IMG/VR virus record: IMGVR_UViG_3300007609_001205
Span: 1-40,833 of that record
Origin: a virus
Length of the DNA stretch: 40,833 nucleotides
Reading direction: 5' to 3' (one strand)
Part shown: in pieces, positions 6,029 through 39,631 of the stretch
Position numbering within the stretch: position 1 is the first letter of the stretch
Layout: the number at the start of each line of letters is the position of its first letter
Translations under genes and position numbers: made by a program
Notes under the pieces: model-generated
Told to the model about the DNA's origin: nothing
The model's database searches: none
The model's input: only the letters and a program-made list of their open reading frames with translations

Positions 6029-6739
6029 TTATTCATTTATTAATTTTTTTTCACATATATGATACATCAATATTGCATCATTAATGTCTTCATATGGCTT
6101 TGGCACTTTTTTCATACCCATCAAATCTCCCCTCATAGATTTAATGTGTTTAAACCACTCACTCTCTATTTCATCATTCTCGATAATTGACATCAACATA
6201 TGTGTTTTTGTAAAATTCCCACCGGCAATTCCATTATTATTTCTATAAGACACCTCTATTCTCTTTTTTCTGACACCAACCTCTTTTTCTATTGGTGGAT
6301 ATGTCAATTTACACGACTCCAATTTTAACTGGGTTGGAGATAGAACCTCAATATCCTCAGTTATTCGGTCATATATCTTTTTTCTTAATAGTGTGGAAAA
6401 TGTTACAAGGTCAAGTAGATCACCAACCTGTGCCCCAAAATTATAACCCTCTATCATAACCTTGGTGGGTTTATTAACATCAATGTTGGATGTTATATCA
6501 TCTAATATCATGTCTGTTACCAGGTCATAATCTTTCAATTTTACAATTTCACCTTCTGAATAATTATCAAATTTTCTATATGATATGTATCTTAGATCAC
6601 AAAAGGGTTCTGAATATTTAAACCATTTAGAAAGTCCGGATTTATTTGTGGCATCTGATTCACGACAATAATTTATAATATGACCATTGGCGACCAGTGC
6701 GGTTGATATTAAAGATGGATCAATTGCAACTATGTTCAT
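6029..6739 (-). CDS. RuvC-fold Holliday-junction resolvase-like nuclease
   Basis: 236 residues with a RuvC/RNase H-type layout. The N-terminal strand MNIVAIDPSLISTALV supplies the first acidic residue. MIEGYNFGAQVGDLLDL, at about residue 98, supplies the catalytic Glu in the IEG context. A late DINDAILMYHIC helix supplies the C-terminal acidic residue, as in RuvC-like resolvases. VLSPTQLK in the middle matches the conserved SP-x-x-x-K turn of phage RuvC relatives. Such enzymes trim branched DNA before packaging and in recombination. The leader contains TATATATAATAAAAGG. The three acidic positions were placed by pattern, not by alignment. Confidence 0.8.
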   Translation of the reverse strand: MNIVAIDPSLISTALVANGHIINYCRESDATNKSGLSKWFKYSEPFCDLRYISYRKFDNYSEGEIVKLKDYDLVTDMILDDITSNIDVNKPTKVMIEGYNFGAQVGDLLDLVTFSTLLRKKIYDRITEDIEVLSPTQLKLESCKLTYPPIEKEVGVRKKRIEVSYRNNNGIAGGNFTKTHMLMSIIENDEIESEWFKHIKSMRGDLMGMKKVPKPYEDINDAILMYHICEKKLINE

Positions 6740-6800
6740 TGTTAATAAATAACCCTTTTATTATATATATGATAAGGATTATCCTACCTCCGACCCATGA

Positions 6801-8855
6801 TTATTCACTGGATTCATCACCGTGGTTTTTTGGGTCTAATTCTGGGTGTTTATGTAATACATATCCCATATAACTACCCCACTTTTCTTTTATATCTTCA
6901 TGTGTCAATTTATATGAAGAACCATCACTACCCCTTAACTTGAATGGCCCGGGACCCATTTCAGCCCTGCCTTCATCCACCCACTTCTGACACATCTTCA
7001 ATATTTCATACCTTCTCTCAGGTTCTCTTATATTTGTTTTACAAACACCCATCCAATCCATAGATTTGTTTATATCTATATTGTAGCCATTATCAAGCAA
7101 ATACTGCACAATATCCATTCTTTCCCATTGGAGAGCAATTCTCATAAGTTTACCATCAGACCTACCCTCAACTGCACCGGCATCCACTAAAAGTTTAACC
7201 ATGTCAATGTTCCCCATCTTTATTGCACATCTTATAGGCATACCACCACCCAAATCTGGGTCCATACCATTTTCGACACAGAATTTAACGGCTTCCATAT
7301 CGTCCAACACTGCACGGAAGGCATGTCTCGTTAATACCGCGCCATTATCAATTAACAATTTTAGTACGGGGAAAGAACGAGATTTATTTATACAAGAGTC
7401 AAAGCCGGTTTTAAGTGTGGCCACTGCACCATTATCAAGAAGATATTTAACCTTCTCAACATCATCTTCATCAATAGCATTTTCAAGTGGTTGACCATTT
7501 TGCGCATTTATATCACCACCATCTTCCTCGTGATATTGTTTTAGTTCATCAAGGGTTATATTAGACTTAACTATATTTCTGTTTGCACTTACCCTTCTTT
7601 TCTTTGCATCAATTTCTTCAGGTGTCATTGGTTCTAATAATTCCCAAAGACACCCTGGATCCGGCAAATCGTGATCCACTTCAAACCTAGAAAGAATGCT
7701 TCTCAAATTATTTTCTGATATGAAATGGTCTCGCTTATCATGTGTAGTTTCAACACTTTTATTTGGTCCGATTGTTGTTCCTATGAAACTAAGATCATCG
7801 GAAGAATCTAAATTGAAATTTACGATGACATACTGTTTATTATAAACAGTTTCACCACCAGCCCATTGATTCCAATAATGGAGGCTATTTTTTATACACC
7901 AAGATGTTGAACCACACAATTCTTGTGTTGCGGCAAATGATTTGAGTTCAAATATAATAACTTCATTCTCATCAAATAACAATTCTGCAGCGTGATCTGC
8001 ACCAAATCGCTTAGTTCTATATATCGCCTCTATAAATTTACTATATCCAGCATTTCCCTCTGCCTTGATGAAGTTCTTCGCACCCTTGACCATTGCCTCT
8101 AAATTTGGATATGCAGATATTTTACTATAAAATCTCTTCTGTATGGCTTTTCTCCTCCCCTTATTCATTACACCATCGACCATACCCAAGTTATCAAACT
8201 CGACTGCAATTTTAGCTAACTCACCTTTTATATATGGACCAGCTTTATCATACTCAGCCTTCATCGAAGACGGGAATTCATTTATGAATTTCTTAGACTT
8301 TCTATACATTTCAATATTCTCAAGGTCATCTTCAAGTTGTTCAAAATTTGGTTTCTCAGAATCCTGATCAATGTAATTGGTTATATTTCTACTTAACCTC
8401 TGTAAAAGGTCTGCATTCTTCTGTAAACGATCAAACATATATTTCAAGTCTTCATCACCAACTTTTTCAACAAGTTTGAAATACAAAAACATATAAACAT
8501 ATCCCTGCTTTTTACCCACTAACTTCTTTACATCCTCAATAGCCCCTGCTCGTTCTGCCTTTTCAAGTTCATCTTTTGTAATCTCAACCTTCTCTCTCTT
8601 ATCTAGCTCATTTGGATCTGTGTTTAAAATTTCCTTTGCCTTGTTTATCAAATCCGTTGGTAAATCCTTCTGTGCTATCGGATAACCATCAGAATCGTGT
8701 AACATAAGACCATCTTCGCTTGTTTTAAACTTTGAGTCTAGCCTAGTAACCACTTTATTTACTTGATACAGTTCTCTTGCCAATTTTTTAGCTTGTGCTA
8801 CATTCTCATTTAATAGCTTGTCATCTCTGAACGACCAATACTTAGAAAATCTCAT
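6801..8855 (-). CDS. Large ankyrin-repeat protein with capsid-targeting-like leader
   Basis: 684 residues. Residues 1-17 (MRFSKYWSFRDDKLLNE) fit the leader shared by at least nine other proteins here and end in L-N-E. A helical region follows. At about 308-370 there is a domain with ELCGSTSWCIKNSLHYWNQW and a beta-rich continuation, the G-x-WCI type of module seen in large phage proteins. Residues about 437-608 carry four to five ankyrin repeats (for example VEKVKYLLDNGA, MDIVQYLLDNGY). Ankyrin repeats bind proteins and are rare in phage virion genes. The start overlaps the stop of the upstream gene by 4 nt (ATGA), so it is the last cistron of a three-gene set. I infer a packaged protein that meets a host target; no enzymatic motif is visible. 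Confidence 0.82.
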   Translation of the reverse strand: MRFSKYWSFRDDKLLNENVAQAKKLARELYQVNKVVTRLDSKFKTSEDGLMLHDSDGYPIAQKDLPTDLINKAKEILNTDPNELDKREKVEITKDELEKAERAGAIEDVKKLVGKKQGYVYMFLYFKLVEKVGDEDLKYMFDRLQKNADLLQRLSRNITNYIDQDSEKPNFEQLEDDLENIEMYRKSKKFINEFPSSMKAEYDKAGPYIKGELAKIAVEFDNLGMVDGVMNKGRRKAIQKRFYSKISAYPNLEAMVKGAKNFIKAEGNAGYSKFIEAIYRTKRFGADHAAELLFDENEVIIFELKSFAATQELCGSTSWCIKNSLHYWNQWAGGETVYNKQYVIVNFNLDSSDDLSFIGTTIGPNKSVETTHDKRDHFISENNLRSILSRFEVDHDLPDPGCLWELLEPMTPEEIDAKKRRVSANRNIVKSNITLDELKQYHEEDGGDINAQNGQPLENAIDEDDVEKVKYLLDNGAVATLKTGFDSCINKSRSFPVLKLLIDNGAVLTRHAFRAVLDDMEAVKFCVENGMDPDLGGGMPIRCAIKMGNIDMVKLLVDAGAVEGRSDGKLMRIALQWERMDIVQYLLDNGYNIDINKSMDWMGVCKTNIREPERRYEILKMCQKWVDEGRAEMGPGPFKLRGSDGSSYKLTHEDIKEKWGSYMGYVLHKHPELDPKNHGDESSE

Positions 8856-26349: not shown

Positions 26350-26907
26350 TGCCAACTTCTCTTCAAGTCTGGCTTTACGAGCCTTTGCTTCATCTACCTT
26401 GAACTTTGGTGCATTTTCAACGAAACCCTTATTGTTCAATTGTTTATTCACCTTTTCAAGACTACTTTTCAGTTTATCAACATCCACAACTATCTCACTA
26501 ACATCATCGACTTTTCTAAATTGTGGTTTCTGTCCCTCAATGTCAAATAAAATGCCTTTATCAGACGACTTCCCAAGTTTCACAAAAACAGTCTCATGTG
26601 ATGCCAGTTGAACCATCTTCCATTCTTTTAAAAATTCAGTTAGATCATTTTTTATATTACTCTCACCAGACATGATATCTCTCAGTTCAAATACTTCGGG
26701 TATAAAGTTCTTCCATTTATCAAATAAGCCAGTGTTTTGAAAGACACTGAACCAAGAACCAGAAGAAATAACTTGTGATATATCACCAATATCCATTCTG
26801 ATATCAGTCACAACCACACCATTCACTTCTATACTTTCAGAATCTATACGGGATTTTATATCATTTACCTTCAATCCCCATTCTTTCAATATTGTCTGTA
26901 GTTTCAT
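26338..26907 (-). CDS. S4-like RNA-binding N-terminal domain protein
   Basis: 189 residues from the ATG at 26907. The frame is open to 26949, but that start lies deeper inside the peptidase gene. The first 35 residues (MKLQTILKEWGLKVNDIKSR, then SIEVNGVVVTD) match the S4-type RNA-binding alpha-L pattern, with a helix pair and the VNG turn. The rest is unassigned, ending in a basic helix (DEAKARKARLEEKL). It overlaps the peptidase gene by 47 nt, so translation is probably coupled. S4 proteins bind structured RNA; the target is unknown. Confidence 0.6.
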   Translation of the reverse strand: MKLQTILKEWGLKVNDIKSRIDSESIEVNGVVVTDIRMDIGDISQVISSGSWFSVFQNTGLFDKWKNFIPEVFELRDIMSGESNIKNDLTEFLKEWKMVQLASHETVFVKLGKSSDKGILFDIEGQKPQFRKVDDVSEIVVDVDKLKSSLEKVNKQLNNKGFVENAPKFKVDEAKARKARLEEKLASVS

Positions 26908-28051
26908 TTTGTGTAAGTTTACGAGACAAAGGTAATGATTCCCAATCAATATTCACACATACATCTGATAATTTTTTCAAATATGTCATATCTAAACATT
27001 CATCAGGGGTGTGTTCGTTCATATAACCAACCGATATATTTGTACATTCGGGTATAACACCCATAAAAGATGCAGAATCACTACTCACACCTGTTGGGTC
27101 TTTCTTCATATCTAATCCATTTGAGTTCATTTGAGAACATAACTCATCAGAAAATTCATCAGAACAACACACTACATCCTTTTGTTTAGTTATAATGGAG
27201 TGGTTACCCTTTCTATCAAAGGCCACACACCGTTCAACACCATGTAGATGTGTCTGTGTATCAAATGAATCAGAAACTGCCTTAGAACCAATGCAACCAG
27301 CCTCCTCGCCAATGAAAAAGTAATATATCCCCGGAACTTCGTTGTACATCATATAAACCATTAGTGCAACGCCTGCTTTATCATCTGCACCAAGTATAGT
27401 TTCACCATCAGTCATTATCAATTCAGAGTCACCTTCCGACTTTGAAAATAAATTTATTTCGGTTTGGTCATCACTACGAGTATCCAGATGTGACACAAAC
27501 ATTGTTTTGGAATTCCCAATTACTTTATAATAGTTCCCAAATTCATCCACTTCAACATCAGGCAACATTTGTGCAACCTGCTCCTCATATCCGTGTGGGT
27601 ATGTCTTCTGAACCATAGCCAAAAAAGTGTATCTTATATCAGATGGGTCATAACCACTATCAGTGAACTCAATACGTTGTGTCCCCACATTGCCCTCATT
27701 AACCTTCAAATCCACGTGTATATCATATGAATTTTGCTCATCCCCAACAAATTTAACTTTGGAATGAACAACATTAACAGGCAATTCTTCTTTATATAAT
27801 TTAATTAACTCCCAAGCCACTTTTTTAAGAGTTTCTTTCGTAGGTAGTTTTTCACGAATACGAATAAGTGCAACATGTTGCCTCTTATCAACTAATTTAA
27901 CAACAACATCATCGTCATCACCCTTTACTCGAATAAGATAGTTACTTGAATCTACATCATTGCCCACAAATACTTTGAAACCATCAACCTCAATATCCTT
28001 GATATCAAAGGATGAACTCTTAGATTCATTGAATGTCATTATGTATCTCAT
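26861..28051 (-). CDS. M20-type metallopeptidase with capsid-targeting-like leader
   Basis: 396 residues. The leader MRYIMTFNESKSSS (F-N-E at 7-9) is followed by an N-terminal region of about 140 residues with no known domain. The catalytic core then begins: FVSHLDTRSDD gives the His and Asp of the H-x-D metal site, LGADDKAGVA gives the bridging Asp, FIGEEAGCIGS gives the catalytic Glu pair, and VAFDRKG and NEHTPDEC give the last Asp and His. All expected metal ligands of the M20/peptidase T family are present, so it should be active as an aminopeptidase-like enzyme. A peptidase carrying this leader may be packaged in the head. It lies 17 nt after the homing endonuclease gene. Confidence 0.85.
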   Translation of the reverse strand: MRYIMTFNESKSSSFDIKDIEVDGFKVFVGNDVDSSNYLIRVKGDDDDVVVKLVDKRQHVALIRIREKLPTKETLKKVAWELIKLYKEELPVNVVHSKVKFVGDEQNSYDIHVDLKVNEGNVGTQRIEFTDSGYDPSDIRYTFLAMVQKTYPHGYEEQVAQMLPDVEVDEFGNYYKVIGNSKTMFVSHLDTRSDDQTEINLFSKSEGDSELIMTDGETILGADDKAGVALMVYMMYNEVPGIYYFFIGEEAGCIGSKAVSDSFDTQTHLHGVERCVAFDRKGNHSIITKQKDVVCCSDEFSDELCSQMNSNGLDMKKDPTGVSSDSASFMGVIPECTNISVGYMNEHTPDECLDMTYLKKLSDVCVNIDWESLPLSRKLTQNETTDNIERMGIEGK

Positions 28052-28068
28052 AGAGTATATATTCCATA

Positions 28069-29976
28069 TTAAATATGATTACGCCTCCAAACATACTTAT
28101 CTTGACCACAACCATAAACACGATGATACCCACGATCACACATTATCTCAACCTCTGTTTTAAGTGGGTCAAATCCATCTTTTATCAATTTACTTTTATT
28201 ATAATTGAACCTATGTTTACGAATACCATCAACAACCCACCAATAATTCGGTGATGTTCTGTATAACATTTCAAATCCCATTTTTTCATAAACCTTACCA
28301 GAAAACATTGATATATCAGCAAATGTGGATATCTCATCAACATCATTATTATCTATGTAATATTTAAATAATTTTGAAGCAGACCCATGTACTGTAGTGT
28401 TTAATTTATTACAAAATCTAACTAATTCATTTCCTTTCTTTGGAGAATGGAATAACATACAAGATACCAATTCACCATTATAAAAAAGACCAACAGCATC
28501 TCTATACGTTGTCTTGCCCTGTATATGATTCATATCTAAAAATTCATTAACCAACTTCTTATCATTTATCACTCTTATATCACACTTCCTACCGGGTATT
28601 TTATACTTGGTCAATCCTAAAAAATTCCTAATTATAGATTCAACAATATCTCGTTTATACAACCAATCATCTTCCCATATGTGTAGTAAATTAATACCTT
28701 GTTCATTACACAAATCAGTCTTTTCCAAATGATAATTAGAATGTTTATATAAGTCTGAGTGCCAATATAAACCATTATACTCAATTGCTATATTTTTCGA
28801 AGGTATATAAATATCCAATTCAAAGGGTGGTATTATTGATTTACTGTTTGGTATATACTCAACTCCAATACTATCCAACCATTCCATTATATTTTTCTCT
28901 TGACCCGACCCACTATTCAATGGGTTACATATTGAACATGGTTCAATGTTTACTGACAATCTTCTCTGTAATGTTGTTGGGTGTATCGAAAATGTATGTC
29001 CACATGAATCATTCTTCAAATCAACAAACCCCTTAATGTCTGAGGCGGATATGAATTCAAATCCCATATCATCATAGAATTTAATTCGTTTCATTAGCCT
29101 TTTTTCAACAAATTCATCACTATTTATGAGATTTTTATATTCTTCTGTTTGAGTATAATGAGTAGCACCATATTTATCATTCATTATACCATCTATGGAA
29201 TTTCTGAATTCATAAGATTGAAAATACCAATCAGTTCCATACTTTGACTTATTCGTATTTTTTACCTTATCAACATATATTGGGGACTGTGAATAATGAT
29301 CAACACCATACTTTGAATTATTGGTGGCAATTGCCTTGGCTTTATATTCATCTGTTCGTGTGAACCAATCAACTCCATATTTTTCTCTGTTTGTTCTAAT
29401 AGTCTTATCAATATATTCCAGACTTTGTACATAATGACCAACACCATATTTATACATCATAGTATCTTTAGAAGTTTTTTTAAACTCCTCTGTTTTGAAA
29501 TAATGATCAACACCATATCTCTTCAAACACGTATCTCGATACTTTTTTTTAACTTCCTCATTCTGGAAAGATGATGTTGTACCATATCTTTCTAAGTTCG
29601 TTGAAGCCTGTTTTTTTTTAACCGATAACAATTTAGCAACATTATCAACACCATACTTAGACAATGTTGTTTTTTTTCTTCTTACCTTAGTTTCCTTACT
29701 ATTTTGTGCACACTTAGCAGAACAATTCTTTTTATACCCATTTAACCAATTACGATTGAATGTGGTATCATTTCCACACACACATTTATAATATTTTGGG
29801 TAATCATTAACCCAATGCCATATCATTTGCTTGAAAGGTAAATCAAGAATTGAACAGAAATTTTCAATTTCTATTAATACCTCATTATAATTTTTTTCAA
29901 AATAACTTCTACGCATTCTGCTAGAACTACCATCCAATATATCGTTTATAACATTTAATCTCTTTTTAATAACCAT
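28069..29976 (-). CDS. Large homing endonuclease-like protein
   Basis: 635 residues. The N-terminal region has a Cys cluster (CVCGND, then CSAKCAQ), a likely zinc finger. Residues about 107-290 hold eight repeats of about 23 residues built on [KR]-Y-G-[VT]-x-x-[YF] (for example KYGVDHYSQSP), the DUF7487-type DNA-recognition repeat of phage mobile endonucleases. A second Cys pair (CSIC) precedes a Vsr/PD-(D/E)XK-like nuclease core, FELDIYIPSKNIAIEYNGLY, followed by WHS and LLHIWEDDW. A C-terminal GNAT-like region follows. It sits just downstream of the major capsid gene and its terminator, the sort of conserved site such free-standing endonucleases invade. Confidence 0.85.
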   Translation of the reverse strand: MVIKKRLNVINDILDGSSSRMRRSYFEKNYNEVLIEIENFCSILDLPFKQMIWHWVNDYPKYYKCVCGNDTTFNRNWLNGYKKNCSAKCAQNSKETKVRRKKTTLSKYGVDNVAKLLSVKKKQASTNLERYGTTSSFQNEEVKKKYRDTCLKRYGVDHYFKTEEFKKTSKDTMMYKYGVGHYVQSLEYIDKTIRTNREKYGVDWFTRTDEYKAKAIATNNSKYGVDHYSQSPIYVDKVKNTNKSKYGTDWYFQSYEFRNSIDGIMNDKYGATHYTQTEEYKNLINSDEFVEKRLMKRIKFYDDMGFEFISASDIKGFVDLKNDSCGHTFSIHPTTLQRRLSVNIEPCSICNPLNSGSGQEKNIMEWLDSIGVEYIPNSKSIIPPFELDIYIPSKNIAIEYNGLYWHSDLYKHSNYHLEKTDLCNEQGINLLHIWEDDWLYKRDIVESIIRNFLGLTKYKIPGRKCDIRVINDKKLVNEFLDMNHIQGKTTYRDAVGLFYNGELVSCMLFHSPKKGNELVRFCNKLNTTVHGSASKLFKYYIDNNDVDEISTFADISMFSGKVYEKMGFEMLYRTSPNYWWVVDGIRKHRFNYNKSKLIKDGFDPLKTEVEIMCDRGYHRVYGCGQDKYVWRRNHI

Positions 29977-30102: not shown

Positions 30103-31824
30103 TTAGTTTAATAACTGTGCATCATCCTTCACACGGATTGTCATGTACTGCTTCTCTGGGAAGAAACCAACGTCAGCAATCGCGTATCTTGATCTAAGTA
30201 GCATTCTTGGTGCGAATGTTGCCTCAGAAATAACAGAGATTGACTGTGCCATCAAATATGGTACGAAGATCAATCCTGGCTGATCTGGGTTATTCTTTCT
30301 ACCAAGTACGATTCGGTTATCGTTGTACTTCATGTATGGATCAACATATACCTGAATATCAGCTACTTGTCCAATTGGGTACAACTGACCCTGACCGTTC
30401 AACTTAGATTTAACTGGATTAACAGTGTATCCAACTACATCCATAAGAGCAGCAGCAAGACCCCCGTTAGTTACAGCGAACTGTGCTGGTCCAACACGAC
30501 CCTCAGTTGCGATGTAGTTAGAAGCATGCATCATCCTAGTGATGAGTTTTCTTTGAACTGCGTGAGTGGTTTCACCACCTGGTCCAGTTGTAGCTGTAAC
30601 ATATGCAGTATCAAGGTCGAAAATTGTATGACCTGTAATAGTTGCTGTTGCGGCTGCTGGAGCAGTTCCACGGTTAGCATCTCCAAGTTCGAAGATTCTT
30701 GAAATAATCTGCTTAGAGATTACCTGAGAAAGTTCATTAACAAGGATTGACTCCATTTTCTGAACGATATCCATACCTGTGTTAGCTTTGATATCCTCGA
30801 TTTCAGTTCTTCTAAGTGCAGAAGATACTTCAATAGTACCAACAGCAACAGATTTAGACGAAATCTTCGGTCCAATAACACCTGCATATCTTGAATCATC
30901 TTGATCACGATCCATTGGGTAATCACCAGAACTTGTATTAGAGTTCCAATTTGCAGAGAACCCTGGAAGCTGATCTTCAAGAGCAGATACCAAATCAACT
31001 GATACAGAAGAGAAGGTAACTCCTGAGAATGTACCTGCTGCCAATTGAGCGTTCATATTTGAAGCATTATCAAATGTATTTTTATCCGCATCCCACTGAT
31101 ATGGGTAAGCACCACTACCTGCACTATTAGGAGCAGTTGTAGAGTTAAACTGACGGAATGCTCTAAAAATAGGAAGACCATCTACACGAGAGAATCCTAA
31201 GAATTCCAACCAACCTGCTTTAGTAGCCGTAGGACCAGCAGTACCGATAGTATCGCTCAAGAAATCCAAGAACAATTGACCATCTTCCAATCCACCTTGT
31301 GTTTCTCTAAGACCCTCACTAGTTATATTGTGAGAAAGAGTTGCAGTAAGTGCAGTAAGTGCAGTAGCATCAGTTGAACTCAACTTGAATACTTGCGGTC
31401 TTGAATCACCACCAACATCTCTAAGATCATCATATTGGAAATCAATATAAAGAAGATCGATTTTTGGACCCGGAGTAGGTTTTACAGCAACAAGGTCAAG
31501 ACCAATTGTCTGGGCTGCGATTTTCATAGCTACTGGAAGTAGGTTCTGACCAAGATCACCTGATCCGATGTTACCTGAAACAGCACCTTGTGATCCAAAT
31601 CCTGAACCACCACCAAGGAGACCTGGTAGAGTACCTGGTTGTGCAGATTGAACACCGCCCATACCGGCAGTTGTAGCATTAACGTAAGCATTTTCATTGA
31701 TTGAATGGAATTCAGCATATTCTGACAACCAATCAAGTCTTTCTTCGTTAGTTACACCCATGTTTTCCAATACTGGACCCCATTTCTTAATAGCTTTTTG
31801 TTTGTCTATTCTAATGTGTGACAT
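30103..31824 (-). CDS. 23: Major capsid protein, T4 gp23-like
   Basis: 573 residues. T4-type features are IDLLYIDFQYDD near residue 125, LSQVISKQIISRIFELG, the helix RKLITRMMHASNYIATEGR, and the C-terminal block VYVDPYMKYNDNRIVLGRK with IFVPYLMAQS and MLLRSRYAIADVGFFPEKQY. These match gp23. The N-terminal propeptide carries I-N-E at residues 42-44 just before NAYVNATTAG, the right place and pattern for removal by the prohead protease encoded next door. The codon use looks more GC-rich and regular than in its neighbours, as expected for the most abundant protein. It is followed by a strong terminator. Confidence 0.95.
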   Translation of the reverse strand: MSHIRIDKQKAIKKWGPVLENMGVTNEERLDWLSEYAEFHSINENAYVNATTAGMGGVQSAQPGTLPGLLGGGSGFGSQGAVSGNIGSGDLGQNLLPVAMKIAAQTIGLDLVAVKPTPGPKIDLLYIDFQYDDLRDVGGDSRPQVFKLSSTDATALTALTATLSHNITSEGLRETQGGLEDGQLFLDFLSDTIGTAGPTATKAGWLEFLGFSRVDGLPIFRAFRQFNSTTAPNSAGSGAYPYQWDADKNTFDNASNMNAQLAAGTFSGVTFSSVSVDLVSALEDQLPGFSANWNSNTSSGDYPMDRDQDDSRYAGVIGPKISSKSVAVGTIEVSSALRRTEIEDIKANTGMDIVQKMESILVNELSQVISKQIISRIFELGDANRGTAPAAATATITGHTIFDLDTAYVTATTGPGGETTHAVQRKLITRMMHASNYIATEGRVGPAQFAVTNGGLAAALMDVVGYTVNPVKSKLNGQGQLYPIGQVADIQVYVDPYMKYNDNRIVLGRKNNPDQPGLIFVPYLMAQSISVISEATFAPRMLLRSRYAIADVGFFPEKQYMTIRVKDDAQLLN

Positions 31825-31864: not shown

Positions 31865-34069
31865 TTAAAGGTTTTTGAATCTTTCCATAATAGAATTCAT
31901 TTCACTCTCTGGCAGTTTATCCTCTTGGATAAGTGCTTCGTGAGAAACTAATTTCTTAGTTACAGTCTCATTCGTTTTGAGATTTCTAGTGTTCCAGAAG
32001 TGTTCCAACTGAGCTTCAGTTTGGAGTACTTCATCTGGATAAAGTCTTGCCTGTGAAAGAACAGACTTTCTAGTGCTCTCGTTTAATTGGTTCCAGATCG
32101 GCTTCATGTTTTCCGGCATCAATCTGAGGACTCTTTCTTCAAGAGTCTCGTTTTTAGTACTCAACGCTTCTGTGATCAACTTCAATACATCTTGTGTAGT
32201 GAAGAAACTTTTTTCGTTTATGTAAAGTTTAACAGTTTCTTGTTCCTCATTAGTGAGGCTGTAGAAACTATCGACCTGAGATTTGTTCAAGAATTTCAAG
32301 AAATGTACATCGGCAGTTTCAGAAGCCTTACGCTTCTTAGCTTCACCGATCAATTTATCAATAGATTTAGATAGTTCAGAATCTGAATCACCCGTAAATG
32401 CGGGTGCTTCTTCTTCACTAGTTTCTTCATCAGAAGATTCCTCATCAGCTTCATCAGAAGATTCTTCCTCTTCGGAAGTCACAACTTCATCAGAAGATTC
32501 TTCTTCTGCACTTACTTCTTCATCAGAAGATTCTTCATCACTTTCGGATTCTTCACCTTCTTTTGGAGTTTCATCTTGTGATGGAGACTGTGCCTCATCA
32601 CCAAGAGTTTCTTCTTCTTCTTCGATTGCTGTGAATCCAACTTCTTCCGGTGTTGGGAACATATTAGCAGATGCTTCACCATCTTCACCTTCTACGCTCT
32701 CGTTTATAGCACCTTCATTAAGCTTCTCAACGATTGTTCTTTGATAATCAATAGATTTATCAAGAGATTCAGCTACATACTCAGAGTACGCAATGTTATC
32801 ATCAAGATTTTCAGCAATGTATTCAGAGTATGCAATGTTACCCTGTACATGCTCTGATAAATATTCAGAGTATGCAATTGAATTGTCAAGATTTTCAGCA
32901 AGATATTCTCCGTAAGAGATTGACTTGTCAAGGTTCTCAGCAATGTATTCAGAGTATGCAATGTTCTTATCAAGATTTTCAGCAATGTATTCAGAGTATG
33001 CAATGTTCTTGTCAAGGTTCTCAGCAAGATATTCTCCGTAAGAGATTGACTTATCAAGGTTCTCAGCAAGATATTCTCCGTAAGAGATTGACTTGTCAAG
33101 ATTTTCAGCGATATACTCAGAGTAATCGATATTCTTGTCAAGATTTTCAGCAAGGTATTCTGAATAGTTTATAGACTTTTCAAGATTTTCCGCTAAATAA
33201 TCATTATGTTCAATGATTTTTTCTGTTTTTTCTTGAAGAGATTTGTTTTCATTAACAACTACTTGTACTTTTTCAGCCAAGTAATCAAGATACTTCTCCA
33301 TTTTCTTATCAGTATCAATAAGTTCATCGTAGTACTCAAGGAGTTGTTCCAATTTCTTTGGATCCAAATTCCCCTTTGTAATAGCCTTCTTAACTTCCTT
33401 CTTAGTAGAAGCCAATTCATTAACAAGATACTTCGAGTAATCTGTTAATTGTTGTTTAGTTACATAATCATTTTGGTTCATGTTGAATAGTTCATTTATT
33501 TTTGATTCATCTTTCATTTCGTAGATTCTGAAGTTAGAATCCGCTTTATATCCAAGCGACTCATTAAGAGGCTGAACATGCATTTTGGCTGACCCAAAAC
33601 CAGGGTCGGCTACGATATCATATGTGAATAATTTTTTCAGTGCAACAGAGCCATCGGCTTCAGTTATACCTGCTGCGCGAGATGAAACAAAAATTGGGCA
33701 ACCATCACTAACAAGTGATTTTGCCTCTTTACCCCAATAAGTTGAAAGTAACCTTATTTCACCCTCTATACGATTTTGCTCAGATACATATTTTGTTCTT
33801 TGGATAGTGTGGGATGATCTTGACAACGATGTATCAAAAACATCCGGGTGGTCAAATTCACCATATACTGCACCAAGTGTCTGAATTCTTTCATTCAACT
33901 CATCCAAGGCAGGTAAGAACTTATCTGCCGTATAAACACGGTCATTCCTGTTCTTAACACCAAACTCAGTGAAAATACCACTCAATAGATACTTATCATC
34001 TGCGCTACGTGCCGCTTCGTTCATTTTCAACGAATTTGTTGAGTTTTCTACGACTAATACTGGTTTCAT
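31865..34069 (-). CDS. 21: Fused prohead protease and scaffold (gp21/gp22-like)
   Basis: 734 residues. Residues 1-170 are a gp21-type serine protease: YGEFDHPD gives His74, CPIFVSSRAAG gives the Ser at 129 or 130, and YDIVADPGF gives a candidate Asp. QPLNE at 166-170 fits the self-cleavage pattern L-x-E at the domain border. Residues about 285-445 contain about eleven 14-residue repeats of the type Y-S-E-Y-[LI]-A-E-N-L-D-K-S-I. Residues about 476-560 are extremely acidic and Ser-rich. A helical C-terminal domain follows. T4 encodes protease and scaffold separately, so this is a fusion. It lies directly upstream of the major capsid gene, as in T4. Confidence 0.9.
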   Translation of the reverse strand: MKPVLVVENSTNSLKMNEAARSADDKYLLSGIFTEFGVKNRNDRVYTADKFLPALDELNERIQTLGAVYGEFDHPDVFDTSLSRSSHTIQRTKYVSEQNRIEGEIRLLSTYWGKEAKSLVSDGCPIFVSSRAAGITEADGSVALKKLFTYDIVADPGFGSAKMHVQPLNESLGYKADSNFRIYEMKDESKINELFNMNQNDYVTKQQLTDYSKYLVNELASTKKEVKKAITKGNLDPKKLEQLLEYYDELIDTDKKMEKYLDYLAEKVQVVVNENKSLQEKTEKIIEHNDYLAENLEKSINYSEYLAENLDKNIDYSEYIAENLDKSISYGEYLAENLDKSISYGEYLAENLDKNIAYSEYIAENLDKNIAYSEYIAENLDKSISYGEYLAENLDNSIAYSEYLSEHVQGNIAYSEYIAENLDDNIAYSEYVAESLDKSIDYQRTIVEKLNEGAINESVEGEDGEASANMFPTPEEVGFTAIEEEEETLGDEAQSPSQDETPKEGEESESDEESSDEEVSAEEESSDEVVTSEEEESSDEADEESSDEETSEEEAPAFTGDSDSELSKSIDKLIGEAKKRKASETADVHFLKFLNKSQVDSFYSLTNEEQETVKLYINEKSFFTTQDVLKLITEALSTKNETLEERVLRLMPENMKPIWNQLNESTRKSVLSQARLYPDEVLQTEAQLEHFWNTRNLKTNETVTKKLVSHEALIQEDKLPESEMNSIMERFKNL
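32750..33205 (-). repeat. 42-bp tandem coding repeats in the scaffold
   Basis: About eleven near-identical 42-bp units plus diverged ends encode the 14-residue coiled-coil repeats of the scaffold. Variation alternates between units (LAE/IAE, SYG/AYS), suggesting duplication of larger blocks. Repeats like this can expand or contract by slippage and could be mistaken for a CRISPR-like array, but they are in frame and translated. Confidence 0.9.
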
Positions 34070-34192
34070 GTATTTCAGTGATTTATTTTAATGTATATAT
34101 CGACTTAAAATACCGCAAAATTGAAAGGTGGATTTTTTATAGGCAGTTTCAACCTTCATTAAACTTTATACACCATATTGAATAGTAACAGT

Positions 34193-34711
34193 ATGGAAGA
34201 ACTAAATGAAATAGATATCAAACGCCTAAAATCATTCTTAGAAACATGGGAAATGAAAATAGATGGCGAAAGAGTAAGTAAGGCAATAGACATACCGGAG
34301 GAAATGAAAATCGAATATGATGATGATACCAAAGAAGAAACCAAAAACCTGATACTTATGTTAATCGAATCAGGAAAAAAGGGTATAAACGTACATATGG
34401 ATCACACGAACATATCAATCGAAATAATCCACCAAAGCAATAGCCAAACCAACCCAATCCATCATAACACAAACATAATAATCATAAAGGGGGACGGTAT
34501 AGAACTTGGTACGGATTCAATTTTAAATTCATATTTCAATACCAAAATAAAATATGAGTCTTTATATGATGAAATATATGATAAAGCATATAGTATAGAA
34601 TCGGAAAGGCGTATAAAGAAGTCTAAACGTATATTCAAAGAGATTGCAATCAACACCGGACTCAATCGAAATATGAACCTAAATGAATTACTGAAGGATA
34701 AAAATACCTAA
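34193..34711 (+). CDS. Unknown protein preceding the polymerase fragment
   Basis: 172 residues from the ATG at 34193 (MEELNEIDIKRLKSFLETWE); a TTG 15 nt upstream is less likely. The N-terminal half is helical and acidic. The middle (HQSNSQTNPIHHNTNIIIIK) is beta-like. A basic helical C terminus (SERRIKKSKRIFKEIA) follows. It is not the missing N-terminal part of the polymerase: no exonuclease motif or DxxSLYP motif is seen. It opens the plus-strand block inside the capsid cluster. Confidence 0.65.
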   Translation: MEELNEIDIKRLKSFLETWEMKIDGERVSKAIDIPEEMKIEYDDDTKEETKNLILMLIESGKKGINVHMDHTNISIEIIHQSNSQTNPIHHNTNIIIIKGDGIELGTDSILNSYFNTKIKYESLYDEIYDKAYSIESERRIKKSKRIFKEIAINTGLNRNMNLNELLKDKNT

Positions 34712-34739
34712 CTATTTGAAAAAGAACCATATAATACGT

Positions 34740-36185
34740 ATGACAAAAGAAGAGAAAACAGAAAAATTAAAGAAATTAAGAGCCAGAGCATCCGAACTAA
34801 AAAAAGATGTTGATTATTACAATGCAATGCAATTGGCACTTAAACTTGTATTGAATGGATCATATGGTGCATTGGCAACACCATACTTCATATTATTCAG
34901 TGAACACGTGGCGGGGAGTATTACTGCACAAGGTAGGGAACTCACAAAACGGATGGATACTGACAATGAAGAGTATTGGTTCAATTTATGGCATAATGAC
35001 TTCGAACTACATAGTAGAATGGGTCTCAAAAATGCTAAAAGAATTCCAGATACAGAAAAAGTATCAATATACGCAGACACAGATTCACTATTTGTTTCAT
35101 TTGAACCGGTCATAAACCACTGTCAGTGGAAAAATAATTTCATAGACCCGACCCGAATGGAAAATATCACACACAAGGTTCTTATATTAGAACATCGCCA
35201 GAAAACGATTGTCAAGAACCCAAATATAAAATCCATTCATATAGATGATCTAGAAAATTTTGAAAAAATGGACATTACCAATATTCTCAAAGAAATACAG
35301 AATGGTGGTTATGAACGATTTGTCATAGATGGTGCATTTGTGAAAGATAGAACATTCAATGATAAAATACTCCCATTGATAAATGGAACCATATATTGGA
35401 ATTGGTCGTGTGAATTGGATTTCATCCAAGGATTTGACCATTTCAGATATGCACAATACTTCAAAGATTGTCTGGATACATATGCAAGTGAATATGGCGT
35501 AAAGAACAAAGAAGATTTCGAACTTGAAAGAATATCAGAATCCATTGTAAATATAGCCAAAAAGAAATACATCCAACATATATTATTCGAAGACGGAATC
35601 GATTACGAAAGACTTAATTATATCTTCCCAAAAGGTGTTGAACTTGTAAGGTCATCCACCCCATTGTTTGCAAGGGAGAAGATTATTGATATCGTTAAGT
35701 ATATTTTCTCACATCCGGATGATTTTAATATCAAAACCCTTCTCAAATTGGTCAAGGATCTCAGACGAGAATTTGAGATGGCAGACATGAATGAAATATC
35801 TATGCAGTCATCCGTTAATAAGTATGAAGAAAAAGTGATAGAAGATAAAGACAGACTCCTATTTGTCAGTGGGGCACACTTTGCAGTTAAGGCTGCAGCC
35901 CACCACAACCACTTATTACACAAGAAGAAAGAATTACAAGCAAAGTATGAATTCTTGAAATCGGGTATGAAGATAAAATACTATTATTGCAAGAATAACA
36001 GAACTGCACCAATATTTGCATTCCAACGTGGTTCCTACCCATTGGAGTTAGCACCAGAAATTGACTACGATACACAATTCCAAAAATGTATCTTATCACC
36101 CATAAATGCAATCATTGAACCACTTGGGATGCCGGAGATAACCAAAAGACTTACTGTGGTCATGGACATATTCTCTAAATTTTAA
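34740..36185 (+). CDS. 43: DNA polymerase family B, C-terminal fragment (gp43-like)
   Basis: 481 residues from the ATG at 34740 (an in-frame TTG lies at 34716). Motif B KLVLNGSYGAL and motif C IYADTDSLFVSF, the second metal-binding aspartates of family B polymerases, are both present, followed by a thumb region ending MPEITKRLTVVMDIFSKF. The exonuclease domain and motif A (DxxSLYP) are absent: an in-frame stop lies at 34692-34694, and the upstream gene is unrelated. The protein therefore starts inside the fingers and can work only together with an N-terminal half encoded elsewhere. Split gp43 genes are known in some T4-like phages. The location, between portal and protease genes, is not the usual one. 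Confidence 0.9.
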   Translation: MTKEEKTEKLKKLRARASELKKDVDYYNAMQLALKLVLNGSYGALATPYFILFSEHVAGSITAQGRELTKRMDTDNEEYWFNLWHNDFELHSRMGLKNAKRIPDTEKVSIYADTDSLFVSFEPVINHCQWKNNFIDPTRMENITHKVLILEHRQKTIVKNPNIKSIHIDDLENFEKMDITNILKEIQNGGYERFVIDGAFVKDRTFNDKILPLINGTIYWNWSCELDFIQGFDHFRYAQYFKDCLDTYASEYGVKNKEDFELERISESIVNIAKKKYIQHILFEDGIDYERLNYIFPKGVELVRSSTPLFAREKIIDIVKYIFSHPDDFNIKTLLKLVKDLRREFEMADMNEISMQSSVNKYEEKVIEDKDRLLFVSGAHFAVKAAAHHNHLLHKKKELQAKYEFLKSGMKIKYYYCKNNRTAPIFAFQRGSYPLELAPEIDYDTQFQKCILSPINAIIEPLGMPEITKRLTVVMDIFSKF

Positions 36186-36235
36186 AGGAAACTACACAAA
36201 GTTGATATATATGTTTAAAATACCAGTAGTTATTT

Positions 36236-36616
36236 ATGATATTGACCAGAGAAGTAGACATTAAGATAAACCAATCCAATTATCAATATTTTGATGATAT
36301 GGGTTATGAGATATGTATTGGTCAAATAATAACAATACCCATAGAATTATTATCAAAAGGATCACACCAAAAGTTAAAATGTAAGTGTGACGGTTGTGGC
36401 ATAATGAAAGATGTAATATTCAAAAATTATGTAAATTATGATAATAAATGGGGATATTACTATTGCAGAAAGTGTTCTGAATCTAAGAGGAAAGCAACCC
36501 TCAAAGAGAATTATGGGGTAGAATACCCACTTCAGAATGAAGAAATATATCACAAAATGAAATCCACTTTAAAGAAAAAAAGATACACACGAAATGAAAA
36601 AGTTGATAATAAATAA
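36236..36616 (+). CDS. Homing-endonuclease remnant with zinc finger and one YGV repeat
   Basis: 126 residues. A Cys cluster (CKCDGCG and CRKCSE), a likely zinc finger, is followed by one repeat, LKENYGVEYPLQNEEIYHKM, of the same type as the repeats in the large endonuclease at 28069-29976. No nuclease core follows: the protein stops after KKKRYTRNEKVDNK. It therefore looks like a truncated mobile endonuclease, or a small DNA-binding regulator derived from one. It lies 50 nt after the polymerase fragment and overlaps the next gene by 23 nt. Confidence 0.7.
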   Translation: MILTREVDIKINQSNYQYFDDMGYEICIGQIITIPIELLSKGSHQKLKCKCDGCGIMKDVIFKNYVNYDNKWGYYYCRKCSESKRKATLKENYGVEYPLQNEEIYHKMKSTLKKKRYTRNEKVDNK

Positions 36617-37322
36617 TAAAGAAGAAGATAGCCAAACTGTAGTTCTATCCGAACAAGATGCACAAGAAGAACTTATAAAAATGGGATTCCCGACATTCAT
36701 AAAAGAATATGACATAGATGATCAATTCATAAAAGACAATGTGGCATTAATCAACCCAAGTGATGTTTGGTTAGCAATCATAGAAGGCCTCCCAATTACT
36801 CAAGACCTTCTCGAATTCTTCTTAGATAAGAAAGTAATCAAAAAAGAATGCATAAGTGACCTCTCTATGTCGATATACTCTAAATTGGGTGATGGATTCA
36901 TCGATAAGTATAAAGAATACATAAATTGGACAAAGATGGTAACATATTTAGCATCTATTGAAAAATTGGACATTGAAAACTACTATGATATAATAGAAGA
37001 AAAGGGACTGTGGAATATAATATCATCAACTGAATTGCCTATTGATTTCATAAGAGAACACAAAGGTAAATTAAAATGGAATGTGTTACTGGCAACAAAC
37101 CACTTCACCGAAGAAGAATTGGAAGAATTCAGTGATCATATACCAAACAATACATATACAGGAAACCAAACAGTTGGAAGTTTCGACACTGAACTTTTCA
37201 AAGAAGAGTTGAAAAATAAAGGTATAAACATATATATGGGTGATTACACAGATGAAAAGACTGAACAACTTACACCAGATGAAATATCAAAGATAAAGAA
37301 TATGTTAAAAGTATTGAAATGA
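36594..37322 (+). CDS. Helical repeat protein of phage/giant-virus type
   Basis: 242 residues, acidic and helical. Repeats of the pattern [LP]-x-x-x-[FY]-[IL]-x-x-x-x-x-x-[IL]-x-W are visible (DGFIDKYKEYINWTKMV, DFIREHKGKLKWNVLL, with TEEELEEFSDHI after it). This F-I-x(n)-W repeat is common in large phages and giant viruses but has no assigned function. The start overlaps the endonuclease remnant by 23 nt, and the stop overlaps the next start (ATGA), so it is part of the inserted plus-strand block. Confidence 0.65.
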   Translation: MKKLIINNKEEDSQTVVLSEQDAQEELIKMGFPTFIKEYDIDDQFIKDNVALINPSDVWLAIIEGLPITQDLLEFFLDKKVIKKECISDLSMSIYSKLGDGFIDKYKEYINWTKMVTYLASIEKLDIENYYDIIEEKGLWNIISSTELPIDFIREHKGKLKWNVLLATNHFTEEELEEFSDHIPNNTYTGNQTVGSFDTELFKEELKNKGINIYMGDYTDEKTEQLTPDEISKIKNMLKVLK

Positions 37323-37762
37323 CATCAAAAATCAAAGTAGATAGACACATACGTGAGTTCGAAAAAATGCTAGACATCTATTCATCCTACAAAGGTTGTC
37401 TAAGAACACTTAAATTAAACTCCATACTTGGCAAAAAATCTAAATTCACCATAGAGGAGATGAACCCAAGAATGACCATTGATCTGAATAATAGTAATGG
37501 TAATTCCATATTAACCTCATCCGATTACCAAACATCTTCCGTATTCACAATAAAAAACTTATCATTTATTATCAGTGATGACCTATATGTTGATGAAATT
37601 GAGTTAAAATATGACATTATTAATAAAGAATTATTAAACAGAGTCATCGAAAATTCAAATGACATTAAAATATCTCTTAAAGTATCATATAATGGTCTAA
37701 CCAAAGAACAACAAGTTGCAGGGTTTTACCTTGAGTTGAGTGATTTGATTCTCAACGATTAA
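37319..37762 (+). CDS. Unknown protein closing the plus-strand block
   Basis: 147 residues. The N-terminal helix (VDRHIREFEKMLDIYSSYKG) is basic. The rest is beta-rich (MTIDLNNSNGNSILTSSDYQ, FIISDDLYVDEIELKYDI). No domain recognised. It is coupled to the gene upstream by ATGA. Its stop codon overlaps the stop codon of the convergent portal gene by 4 nt, so the insertion boundary is tight and leaves no room for a terminator. Confidence 0.65.
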   Translation: MTSKIKVDRHIREFEKMLDIYSSYKGCLRTLKLNSILGKKSKFTIEEMNPRMTIDLNNSNGNSILTSSDYQTSSVFTIKNLSFIISDDLYVDEIELKYDIINKELLNRVIENSNDIKISLKVSYNGLTKEQQVAGFYLELSDLILND

Positions 37763-39492
37763 AATTCAAATTCATCACCGCCACCGACACCACCTTCATC
37801 TGGACCACCTTCATCACCACCAATATCTGGACCACCTTCATCACCACCACCGAAGTCGTCACCGCCACCAAAGTCGTCACCGCCACCAAAGTCGTCACCG
37901 CCACCAAAGTCGCCGCCACCGCCACCGCCACCGGCACCGGCACCACCCTCCATACCTTCAGCACTACCGGCACCATTAGGATCTCTTTCCCAATACCGTC
38001 TATTTTCTTCTTTGTCCTCAGGAGATAATTTAAGAATGTGATCGACTAGATAATCAATGTGAAAATATGGACTACCATCGGGTTTAACAACACCCGTCAT
38101 TGTTTGAAGTATCTCAGCCTTTTTTGCAAGGTTACCCAATTTTTTCCACTCCTCAAATAATTGATTCGATAAGAAATCGATATCCATCTGATTCATGATC
38201 TTTTGGTCTTCTTTCAATTCAGGGAACTCAACCAACATCTGCAGTTTCAATGGTTTAACAATAAGTTCTTTGAAGATTGCTCTTTGTCTTTGTATGAAAC
38301 TAGAAAATTCTGCCTCATCTCTTGTTATCTCAGCAGCATCAGTGAATACATTACCACCACCATTCTCATCTTGAAAACGCAACATAGGAATCTTAGAAGC
38401 CCTTTTCAATATGTTAAAGAACCATTTAAGTATATTATCCTCATTCAAATCATGACCTTGTGGTGATACAATCTCCATACTCGGCTGACCAGCATCCCCC
38501 TCAGGAAACCAAAACTGCTTATTATATGGTAAATGTTTATGCCCATTTATACTCAATGTACCCATAGAATCATCCCACTCTACCTCTTCTGAATAATCTT
38601 GTATCAGTTGTCCAATTTGTTCTTCGGCTCTCTGACGACCCAGGCCCTTTGTTGGGATAACAAATTTCTGATAAAGTGTTGCATTTATCATATTGAACAT
38701 TATCTTGGTCTGTTCAATAATCTTCAATTGGTTATATGGCTTTATAAGACCTTCAACATAAGAAGTTTCTGAATAATCATTCTGTGATGAATATGAAATA
38801 AATACCATCTGAGAATCTAAGAAAATTCTTCTCAATTGTGGATCTTCCGGATACTGTATCCACAAATGACCAATATTTGGTTCATATGCAGGTACAATTG
38901 TCTGTGGTTCAAGTCTATTGAAACTTATAATATTCTTGTTCTTATCATCCCAAACAATCTCCATTGCAATGTGTCCATCTATAAGGAAATCTCTCATTAA
39001 GTTCCAAGCAGATATCGAGTCAGAGAACCCATAAGTGTTATAAATCGTATCAAAATATTCCAAATACTTATCTCTTACCTCTTGTGGGTAATCATTGGAT
39101 ATATGTGAAGCATTACAGAAATCCTTATCTGAATAAACAATTGCCTCATCACATACTGTTGAAACGAAATCACGAATCTCATCTTTAATAGAATATTCTC
39201 TGAGAATCCTTCTCTTATCTGCATAACTTCTATCAAGGTATGGTATTGACTTCTGTGATAAAACACTGGCAACTGCCTTCCTCGAAAAGAAATCATACAT
39301 TGAATTACCTTCAACTGAATGTGGGTCTTCATTGATATTCACACCAACTGTGTTACGCATGATCATATCATCATAATTCATACCCCAATTGGAAAGGTTT
39401 CTCAATATTCTTGAAAATAAACCTCGGTTCTCCACTGCCGAGTTCGCAAAAGAAAATTGATCTTGATTATTATTCGGATTATAACTAGCCAT
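37759..39492 (-). CDS. 20: Portal vertex protein, T4 gp20-like
   Basis: 577 residues from the ATG at 39492 (MASYNPNNNQDQFSF). The frame is open to 39549, but that part is antisense-frame shadow of the HTH gene, whose stop lies 4 nt before this ATG. The gp20-type body is seen in DEIRDFVSTVCDEAIVYSD, LMRDFLIDGHIAMEIVWDD, the clip/stem region KFVIPTKGLGRQRAEEQIG, and the long-helix and crown region PMLRFQDENGGGNVFTDAAE. The last 75 residues are Gly/Asp-rich repeats (GGGDDF repeated four times), unusual for gp20 and probably flexible. It makes the dodecameric ring for DNA entry and exit. Confidence 0.92.
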   Translation of the reverse strand: MASYNPNNNQDQFSFANSAVENRGLFSRILRNLSNWGMNYDDMIMRNTVGVNINEDPHSVEGNSMYDFFSRKAVASVLSQKSIPYLDRSYADKRRILREYSIKDEIRDFVSTVCDEAIVYSDKDFCNASHISNDYPQEVRDKYLEYFDTIYNTYGFSDSISAWNLMRDFLIDGHIAMEIVWDDKNKNIISFNRLEPQTIVPAYEPNIGHLWIQYPEDPQLRRIFLDSQMVFISYSSQNDYSETSYVEGLIKPYNQLKIIEQTKIMFNMINATLYQKFVIPTKGLGRQRAEEQIGQLIQDYSEEVEWDDSMGTLSINGHKHLPYNKQFWFPEGDAGQPSMEIVSPQGHDLNEDNILKWFFNILKRASKIPMLRFQDENGGGNVFTDAAEITRDEAEFSSFIQRQRAIFKELIVKPLKLQMLVEFPELKEDQKIMNQMDIDFLSNQLFEEWKKLGNLAKKAEILQTMTGVVKPDGSPYFHIDYLVDHILKLSPEDKEENRRYWERDPNGAGSAEGMEGGAGAGGGGGGGDFGGGDDFGGGDDFGGGDDFGGGDEGGPDIGGDEGGPDEGGVGGGDEFEF

Positions 39493-39496
39493 AATA

Positions 39497-39631
39497 TTAC
39501 TTCTTTTTTTTATCCAAGTATATATACCTACCTGATGGCGTTTTTTCAACGTTGATCAAACCCTTCTTTACCCAATTGGATAAAGTTCTTCTTGTAATAT
39601 TGTATTTTTCCATTACTTCTTTAGCTTTCAT
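39497..39631 (-). CDS. 44-residue MerR-like helix-turn-helix protein
   Basis: Start ATG at 39631, stop TAA at 39497. The sequence has AKEVMEKYNITRRTLSNWVK followed by KGLINVEKTPSGRYIYLD, the winged helix-turn-helix of MerR/IS607-type N-terminal domains: recognition helix RRTLSNW and wing TPSGRYIY. No effector or dimerisation domain follows. Its stop is 4 nt upstream of the portal start, and TTTAATATATA ends 6 nt before its own ATG. It may regulate the portal or late operon, or be a relic of a transposon-type regulator. Confidence 0.75.
   Translation of the reverse strand: MKAKEVMEKYNITRRTLSNWVKKGLINVEKTPSGRYIYLDKKKK

Follow-up and report, generated by a model that had tools for sequence, protein, structure and literature searches.

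The window analysed here is a stretch of 40,833 nucleotides (positions 1-40,833) of the IMG/VR viral record IMGVR_UViG_3300007609_001205, a linear fragment of 151,869 bases, and our subject is a gene in it for the C-terminal half of a split family B DNA polymerase, here called PolC, which lies among the head genes. Between the head protease/scaffold gene and the portal gene, both on the minus strand and recognised by matches to PHROG 207 and Portal_T4, five plus-strand open reading frames (ORFs) occupy positions 34178/34193-37762 and form a cassette antisense to the T4-type head genes on either side, just as an original prediction made from the letters of the sequence had described. The main features of the locus are the following:

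28069..29976, minus strand: full-length homing endonuclease in the same head cluster (PHROG 3339, 1.6e-133; DUF7487, 9.1e-36)
30103..31824, minus strand: major capsid protein (PHROG 138, 4.5e-23)
31865..34069, minus strand: head maturation protease whose long remainder is repeat-rich and scaffold-like (PHROG 207, 6.6e-26)
34178..34711, plus strand: ORF of 177 residues (ATG at 34193) between protease and PolC, not endonuclease-type
34716..36185, plus strand: PolC, C-terminal half of the split family B DNA polymerase (PF00136, PHROG 262)
34842..34868, plus strand: motif B of PolC, KLVLNGSYG, uninterrupted in the window
35070..35087, plus strand: motif C of PolC, YADTDS, where some relatives have intein-like inserts
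36236..36616, plus strand: zinc-finger/YGV protein of 126 residues, resembling the N-terminal part of DUF7487-type homing endonucleases
36594..37322, plus strand: fast-evolving ORF of 242 residues (PHROG 3532, unknown function; 37% identity to its counterpart in the sister contig L036)
37319..37762, plus strand: fast-evolving ORF of 147 residues (~50% to its L036 counterpart; a relative in the portal/protease gap of LR756502.1)
37759..39549, minus strand: portal protein, T4 gp20 type (Portal_T4, 9e-57)

The likely start of PolC is the ATG at 34740, which gives a protein of 481 residues. It matches PF00136 from profile position 136 onward (3.8e-19) and positions 482-839 of the 856 in PHROG 262 (3.2e-51), and a profile of 13 C-halves maps to residues 527-637, weakly also 700-791, of RB69 gp43. 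The protein holds the second fingers helix, motif B, motif C, an insert of about 100 residues and the palm/thumb, and the ORF has neither exonuclease domain nor motif A, in agreement with the original prediction of half a polymerase that begins in the fingers and carries motifs B and C only. The ratio of nonsynonymous to synonymous differences (pN/pS) is 0.19-0.36 against L036 and the huge phages LR745206.1 and LR756502.1 (with L036, pN 0.14 and pS 0.73), and by this measure PolC is under purifying selection. Its closest named relatives are huge phages, namely LR745206.1 (61% identity), LR756502.1 (60%), LR756504.1, LR756501.1, LR756500.1 and Lak-A2; the single PolC protein, used as a query in viral contigs, retrieved no relative, and alignment queries did. 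The insert of about 100 residues lies between motif C and the thumb (35103-35414, residues ~122-225 counted from the ATG at 34740); it is common to LR745206.1 and LR756502.1 and missing in LR756504.1.

All six huge-phage records searched carry separate genes for the N- and C-terminal halves of the polymerase (PHROG 262), the N-half ending at profile position 498-505 and the C-half beginning at 469-497, and no match to this family spans both halves in these records of 462-735 kilobases (kb). As the records are written, the halves lie ~10 kb apart in LR756500.1, ~101 kb in LR745206.1, ~132 kb in LR756502.1, ~221 kb in Lak-A2, ~281 kb in LR756504.1 and ~618 kb in LR756501.1. The N-half genes of these six relatives contain motif A (DFASLYP) and end after the first fingers helix, and in the N-half at locus L161 the exonuclease family PF03104 is recognised (1.6e-11). 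Thirteen N-halves combined in a profile align with residues 103-502 of RB69 gp43 and, since the C-halves map from 527, the cut lies between RB69 residues 502 and 527, a region that we take to be the tip of the fingers domain.

Alignment searches of IMG/VR returned at least 80 C-type and at least 80 N-type loci, and a third search 27. An N-half match is present in all 86 N-half loci compared (80 among the matches listed and six named ones), and PolC is found in none of them within 97 to ~8,000 bases downstream; on seven IMG/VR contigs among the matches listed both halves occur, 41-171 kb apart. Because all six huge phages have two genes and none of the 86 N-half loci carries PolC, the split predates the insertion in the window, and the idea that this insertion had itself split the polymerase has to be given up. 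Among 59 more distant C-type loci, 46 are fused (seven of these at the edge of a contig), an N-half lies nearby in eight and none is visible in the remaining five. The halves are ~4-5 kb apart in six of the eight (L057, L058, L059, L061, L063 and L064); the four loci of this near-split group that were read have two long ORFs between the halves, in L057 the small and large subunits of ribonucleotide reductase (2.1e-70 and 5.7e-155), and this arrangement, with such genes in between, may be an intermediate through which the split passed. The polymerase occurs fused, near-split and far-split, and the window probably belongs with the far-split form.

In the window's own record PF00136 and PHROG 262 match the PolC gene only, without a second polymerase. 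PF03104 finds no match there, nor does an alignment of six N-halves, in a search whose output held no positive control, and PHROG 262 does detect N-halves in six other records. A complete polymerase gene, which would make PolC a pseudogene copy, was not found in this record, a fragment, and the N-terminal half with motif A that the original prediction expected elsewhere in the genome is found in the six relatives and not in the 151,869 bases of the record itself. Its whereabouts are suggested by contig 3300005613_000025 (L242/L161), which has PolC next to the protease at one of its ends (81% identity over the part present) and the N-half ~75 kb from PolC; two window genes recur in this contig in the same order and at similar distances, and from this synteny we infer that the window's N-half would lie ~40 kb beyond the left end of the window.

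The PolC loci compared number 45: 35 contigs found by homology, seven found by the hairpin pattern treated below, and the window, LR745206.1 and LR756502.1. Only five of them, the window, L036, L221, L222 and L242 (L221 and L222 being near-identical to each other), have a match to portal or protease no more than 5.2 kb from PolC, which upholds the view that a polymerase in the head module is unusual. In three further loci (L052, L206 and L215) the portal is 8-10 kb from PolC, partial matches to the N-terminus of the capsid protein lie within 3 kb of it in L041, L050 and L234, and portal and protease are ~19-20 kb away in LR756500.1; a looser link of PolC to head genes in other loci is possible. 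In 24 of the 45 loci what ends within 1.6 kb upstream of PolC is a conserved, clamp-like ORF of ~258 residues (e.g., L048 5180-5950), and the comparison of gene order with relatives does not support the head-cluster order as an ancestral state. This ORF had been judged by eye to be a sliding clamp, and is called clamp-like only, since family support is weak: Pfam gave nothing convincing for four members and PHROGs nothing at 0.001 for three, and at E up to 1 PHROG 223 ('processivity factor') appeared in two of seven members (best 0.0041); two archaeal clamps came up at E 2.5 and 4.8.

The same portal/protease gap is found without PolC in other huge phages. In LR745206.1 and LR756502.1 it holds an antisense homolog of the window's 126-residue ORF (66% and 65%) and a relative of the 147-residue ORF (2.3e-7 in LR756502.1, more weakly, 0.002, in LR745206.1), and in LR756504.1 a full-length endonuclease. 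The gap of LR745206.1 additionally holds other genes; a 644-residue ORF (L196 3386-5317, minus strand) stands there between the homologs of the 126- and 147-residue ORFs. With an endonuclease-type gene in these three PolC-free gaps, PolC therefore looks like a newcomer in an older cassette. Judging from these sequences, an endonuclease-type gene probably occupied the portal/protease site before the polymerase half, and the head-cluster site of PolC looks derived, since PolC lies elsewhere in 40 of the 45 loci.

The 126-residue ORF starts at 36236, 50 nucleotides after the PolC stop codon. It matches DUF7487 over residues 84-118 only (4.9e-5, 23.8 bits against a cut-off of 27 bits), PHROG 5104 (unknown function, 6.8e-12) and PHROG 12131 ('homing endonuclease', 6.8e-5), and a search for a nuclease domain of the MTES_1575 type gave no match in it at E <= 0.01. 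The endonuclease-like ORF predicted 50 nucleotides after PolC is thus where it was said to be, with weak matches to DUF7487 and PHROG 12131. Its description as a homing-endonuclease remnant is right in that the protein is truncated and endonuclease-like, and wrong in that it does not appear to be decaying: homologs in four lineages hold a length of 125-129 residues, with a ratio of nonsynonymous to synonymous substitution rates (dN/dS) of 0.11-0.26, similar to PolC and rough because dS is high. On these sequences it is better named a conserved short protein than a dying remnant. The two ORFs that follow it have dN/dS values against L036 of 0.39 (36594-37322) and 0.29 (37319-37762).

Endonuclease-type genes also stand at the edges of the cut: 13 of the 86 N-half loci, including several near-duplicates, have one at the 3' edge of that half, and 16 of the 45 PolC loci have one at the 5' edge of PolC. 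The direct neighbour of PolC is a GIY-YIG endonuclease in L036 and a DUF7487 protein in L242, and in these two sister contigs an endonuclease-type gene occupies the place of the window's 177-residue ORF, for which no relatives were found in the phage collection. Endonuclease genes at the cut edges fit an endonuclease origin of the split, without proving one.

Taken together, we think it likely that PolC functions as one subunit of a replicative polymerase encoded by two genes, that the once single gene was opened long ago at the tip of the fingers, and that PolC was later displaced to an endonuclease site in the head cluster. The N-gene would supply the exonuclease, motif A and the first fingers helix, and motif B on the second fingers helix, motif C and the thumb would come from PolC; the two chains would be held together without a peptide bond, through a fingers coiled coil and the palm, as the analogy of gp43A/gp43B in Aeromonas phages suggests. 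After this early opening of the gene, PolC would in the window's lineage have come between portal and head protease, where an endonuclease-type gene already sat, most likely through recombination provoked by an endonuclease. The window would then carry an uninterrupted, displaced allele of a gene that has been invaded repeatedly, by endonucleases at the cut edges, by intein-like inserts at motif C and by bypass-like hairpins at motif B.

Several observations weigh against this interpretation. The N-half of the window's own phage is not seen in its fragmentary record, and LR756501.1 and LR756502.1 give short, weak extra matches to PHROG 262. An AlphaFold model of PolC alone is poor (mean predicted local distance difference test score 54.6), with the ~100-residue insert as its largest confident part, and Foldseek found no fold match for this model at E <= 0.001. 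As for the endonucleases, none was detected at the 5' edge of PolC in 29 of the 45 loci, the window's own 5' neighbour, the 177-residue ORF, is not one, no endonuclease-like gene was seen between the halves in what was read of the near-split group, and such neighbours may be hitchhikers.

A linear fragment in which no N-half was found also leaves room for PolC as a decaying copy, the phage replicating with a complete polymerase in the missing part of its genome or with a host enzyme; yet PolC keeps 480 stop-free codons, its pN is far below its pS with L036, and the six huge phages have the split form with no match across both halves, all of which makes decay very improbable. Least probable in our estimate is the splicing of the halves into one chain, by a split intein or by RNA trans-splicing: intein-like inserts, some of them fractured, do occur at motif C of relatives, but the N-halves end in a plain fingers helix without an intein tail, PolC starts with a methionine and a helix, and no Rfam family reaches its gathering score in the window between 30000 and 40833. 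The route of PolC into the head cluster is where a competing account deserves most attention. PolC may have arrived by ordinary illegitimate recombination, the endonuclease-type genes being coincidental in a crowded intergenic site, and to this we would give appreciable weight, while still holding it to be less probable: the site's endonuclease-type gene in LR745206.1 and LR756502.1 is already truncated and was maybe inactive when PolC arrived, and the LR745206.1 gap holds other genes too, whereas LR756504.1 has a full-length endonuclease in the same gap, and L242 and L036 have two different endonuclease families directly beside the displaced PolC.

The PolC gene of relatives is marked by a further kind of interruption. 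In 27 of the 45 PolC genes a hairpin insert interrupts motif B, in it or just before it, and the window allele is uninterrupted. By source, the insert occurs in 20 of the 35 homology-found contigs, in all seven pattern-found ones (by construction) and in none of the window, LR745206.1 and LR756502.1; L046, which begins after motif B and is not judgeable, is counted among the 18 without it. The insert-bearing loci are L038, L039, L041-L045, L048-L054, L069, L206, L208, L211, L212, L215, L217, L219, L230, L233, L238, L239 and L242. In window numbering the insert follows codon 42 (22 loci), codon 45 (L242), codon 49 (L041) or codon 50 (L038, L039 and L045), and by codons and gap length the 27 loci make 19 forms. 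The gap measures 36-48 nucleotides including the landing codon, with lengths of 0, 1 and 2 modulo 3 all represented, and a stop codon lies within two codons of the take-off codon in 25 of the 27 loci, the exceptions being L045 and L054. Beyond the insert the reading frame stays open, save for motif-C breaks in a few loci. L201 and L213/L214 have the same printed protein and differ by one G in the G-run of the insert, which puts them in different frames and could be a sequencing error in that run. Three of 11 printed alleles (L045, L048 and L049) have no ATG, GTG or TTG in frame before +87 nucleotides past motif B, and the others have an in-frame start codon nearer than that. With an open frame beyond the insert, varying gap classes and no near start in three alleles, the two sides must therefore be joined somehow.

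Hairpins of this kind are nearly confined to PolC, on which ground a common repeat or a terminator was rejected as their identity. Those of the C5...G5 type that pass the filter occur in 14 of 198 loci, each time in PolC, and in whole contigs there is one each in five and none in G000 or W01-W06; longer C4+ hairpins, over 3.05 Mb of partly overlapping loci, lie in PolC except for two terminator-like ones (L036/L220 and L146). The site-42 pattern had eight matches in a collection of bacterial and archaeal genomes, none with PolC flanks, against 21 of 21 in viral contigs, and the patterns for sites 49 and 45 gave no contigs beyond those already found. An endonuclease-type gene stands at the 5' edge of PolC in 13 of the 27 loci with an insert and in three of the 18 without (L036, L221 and L222).

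At site 42, 15 of 15 distinct alleles have an upstream arm, 44-51 nucleotides before the end of the take-off codon, that pairs at eight of eight positions with an arm immediately preceding that codon, against three to six of eight pairs in 15 uninterrupted genes, a comparison that favours the former, as the stem was derived from the same 15 alleles. L041, which carries the insert, and L047, which was unmatched, fell out of the stem-pairing controls. Every position of the helix (100%) is paired in the 11 site-42 alleles found by homology, and both partners change in two of its eight pairs; out of 500 shuffles one reaches the covariation score and 11 the count of two-sided changes, fractions that are not probabilities because the alleles are related, and pair types are no more numerous than in the shuffles. 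The stem forms at the other sites too, shifting with the insert, with a duplex of -15.5 to -27.0 kcal/mol in 19 of 20 alleles (L038, -8.1) against -2.9 to -15.8 kcal/mol in 14 uninterrupted genes at the four sites (one of the 15 controls had no value), so that the two ranges barely meet. In 24 of the 27 loci the first two bases of the take-off codon recur in the landing codon: in 24 of 24 at sites 42, 45 and 49 (17 of 17 without the seven pattern-found loci, whose pattern demanded CTA) and in one of three at site 50, where the matching locus has UAA as its landing triplet and L038 and L039 are unmatched. The pairs are CUU or CUG with CUA, GUU with GUA and UCU with UCA; related alleles share ancestry, so that these are few independent matches. 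An additional GAGTC/GACT pairing around the insert was dropped as a candidate, several alleles being without it and yet keeping CTA.

Our leaning, held with no great assurance, is that the motif-B inserts are programmed elements for translational bypassing and make up a family separate from T4 gene 60. Their 5' stem would have co-evolved with them through the rewriting of upstream codons, and they would often travel with a neighbouring homing endonuclease, from whose cleavage they may shield the gene. In that case the window, L036, L221 and L222 would be element-free alleles at the head-cluster endonuclease site, and L242 an allele there still with the element. If bypass is true, the joined product would contain the junction peptide ...LQLALKLVLNGSYG.... 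Frameshifting in its place was rejected, the gap being 0, 1 or 2 modulo 3 among alleles, even near-identical ones. The main rival to bypass is RNA removal: the hairpins could be cut from the RNA, or the gene could be split into a third chain by re-initiation, both of which we rather doubt. Two of the three alleles at the Tyr50 site (L038 and L039) have no matched landing codon, as these accounts would allow, and a 2-nucleotide target-site duplication could equally give matched codons; however, L045, L048 and L049 lack the early in-frame start that re-initiation would use, and no Rfam family was found at cut-off in the loci searched, one hairpin region giving hits only below the gathering score and L242 and L041 giving nothing at it. 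The insert is, moreover, far shorter than known self-splicing introns.

Some PolC genes are broken a second time, at motif C, into intein-like pieces (L008 7359-10771, L048 ~6400-8000 and L009 9911-12059), with a homing-endonuclease-type gene between the pieces in L008 and probably in L048. LR756500.1 has an intein-like split at motif C with an endonuclease gene between the pieces, and L048 looks alike. Fractured genes with split inteins and Vsr-like endonucleases are a known type of system; the motif-C break of LR756500.1 resembles it, whereas the break at the fingers shows no intein.

Elsewhere in the window, the head protease gene (31865-34069) contains an extended tract of repeats resembling 'YSEYIAENLDKSI', together with an acidic region rich in Ser and Glu. 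The full-length homing endonuclease (28069-29976) sits between a peptidase gene and the capsid gene, and has a nuclease-like MTES_1575 match below cut-off (2.3e-4). The peptidase-like gene (26861-28051, PHROG 4191) has six matches in LR745206.1 and five in LR756502.1, some of them pieces of one gene, and one match only in the sister contig G006. The gene at 20962-22500 matches DUF285 repeats strongly (1.1e-81) and has a PKD-like region; its product may belong to the surface or to a fibre.

These observations suggest that an essential replicative enzyme can be dismantled without apparent loss, into two genes up to hundreds of kb apart, with one half mobile into an unrelated module, and the far-split form offers a natural cut point for split polymerases. 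The motif-B inserts, if they are what we propose, add 27 candidate bypass loci in one gene, in which the rules for take-off, landing and stem-loop are directly testable. Three things appear to be new here: within titles and abstract openings (supplements and most subscription papers being outside this scope) no distant polymerase split in huge phages, head-cluster displacement of a polymerase half or bypass-like polymerase insert is described, and by a term search the word 'split' is absent from the texts of Al-Shayeb 2020 and Crisci 2021.

T4-type polymerases made of two chains are already known, as are the endonucleases that go with them; in the accessible parts of the report on the Aeromonas phages 44RR and 25, the polymerase (43A/43B) likewise consists of two chains with an endonuclease gene at the broken gene, and the two gp43 chains of phage 25 come through purification together and show polymerase activity (PMC2988022). 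There, as far as that text goes, one gene is split by a short untranslated sequence or an endonuclease insertion, whereas here the halves of relatives are 10-618 kb apart and the window's PolC lies in the head cluster. The polymerase genes of the Jug huge phages are also described as split by endonucleases, and the portion of that paper available describes a local interruption, and not two distant halves or a displaced C-half (PMC12363816). Bypassing is, in the sections consulted, well established for bacterial ribosomes in T4 gene 60, with 81 cases in yeast mitochondria and a Streptomyces phage terminase and a Prevotella adhesin as unproven candidates (PMC5009743). In gene 60, according to the available text of two papers, ribosomes skip a 50-nucleotide insert after codon 46 of an endonuclease-split topoisomerase gene, aided by the nascent peptide, by stem-loops on the 5' side and at take-off, by a stop codon that follows the take-off codon and by a landing codon that matches it (PMC5009743, PMC11194080). 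The motif-B inserts of relatives, known from their sequences, recall this system in their early stop and 5' stem-loop, and perhaps in a landing codon that in most loci shares two bases with the take-off codon, but they differ from it in the gene concerned, in a gap of 36-48 rather than 50 nucleotides, in having four insertion sites, in codons that are synonymous rather than identical and in the absence of a KKYK nascent peptide. The window's own PolC allele, being without an insert, is not a member of the gene 60 type, and it is its relatives that are the candidates.

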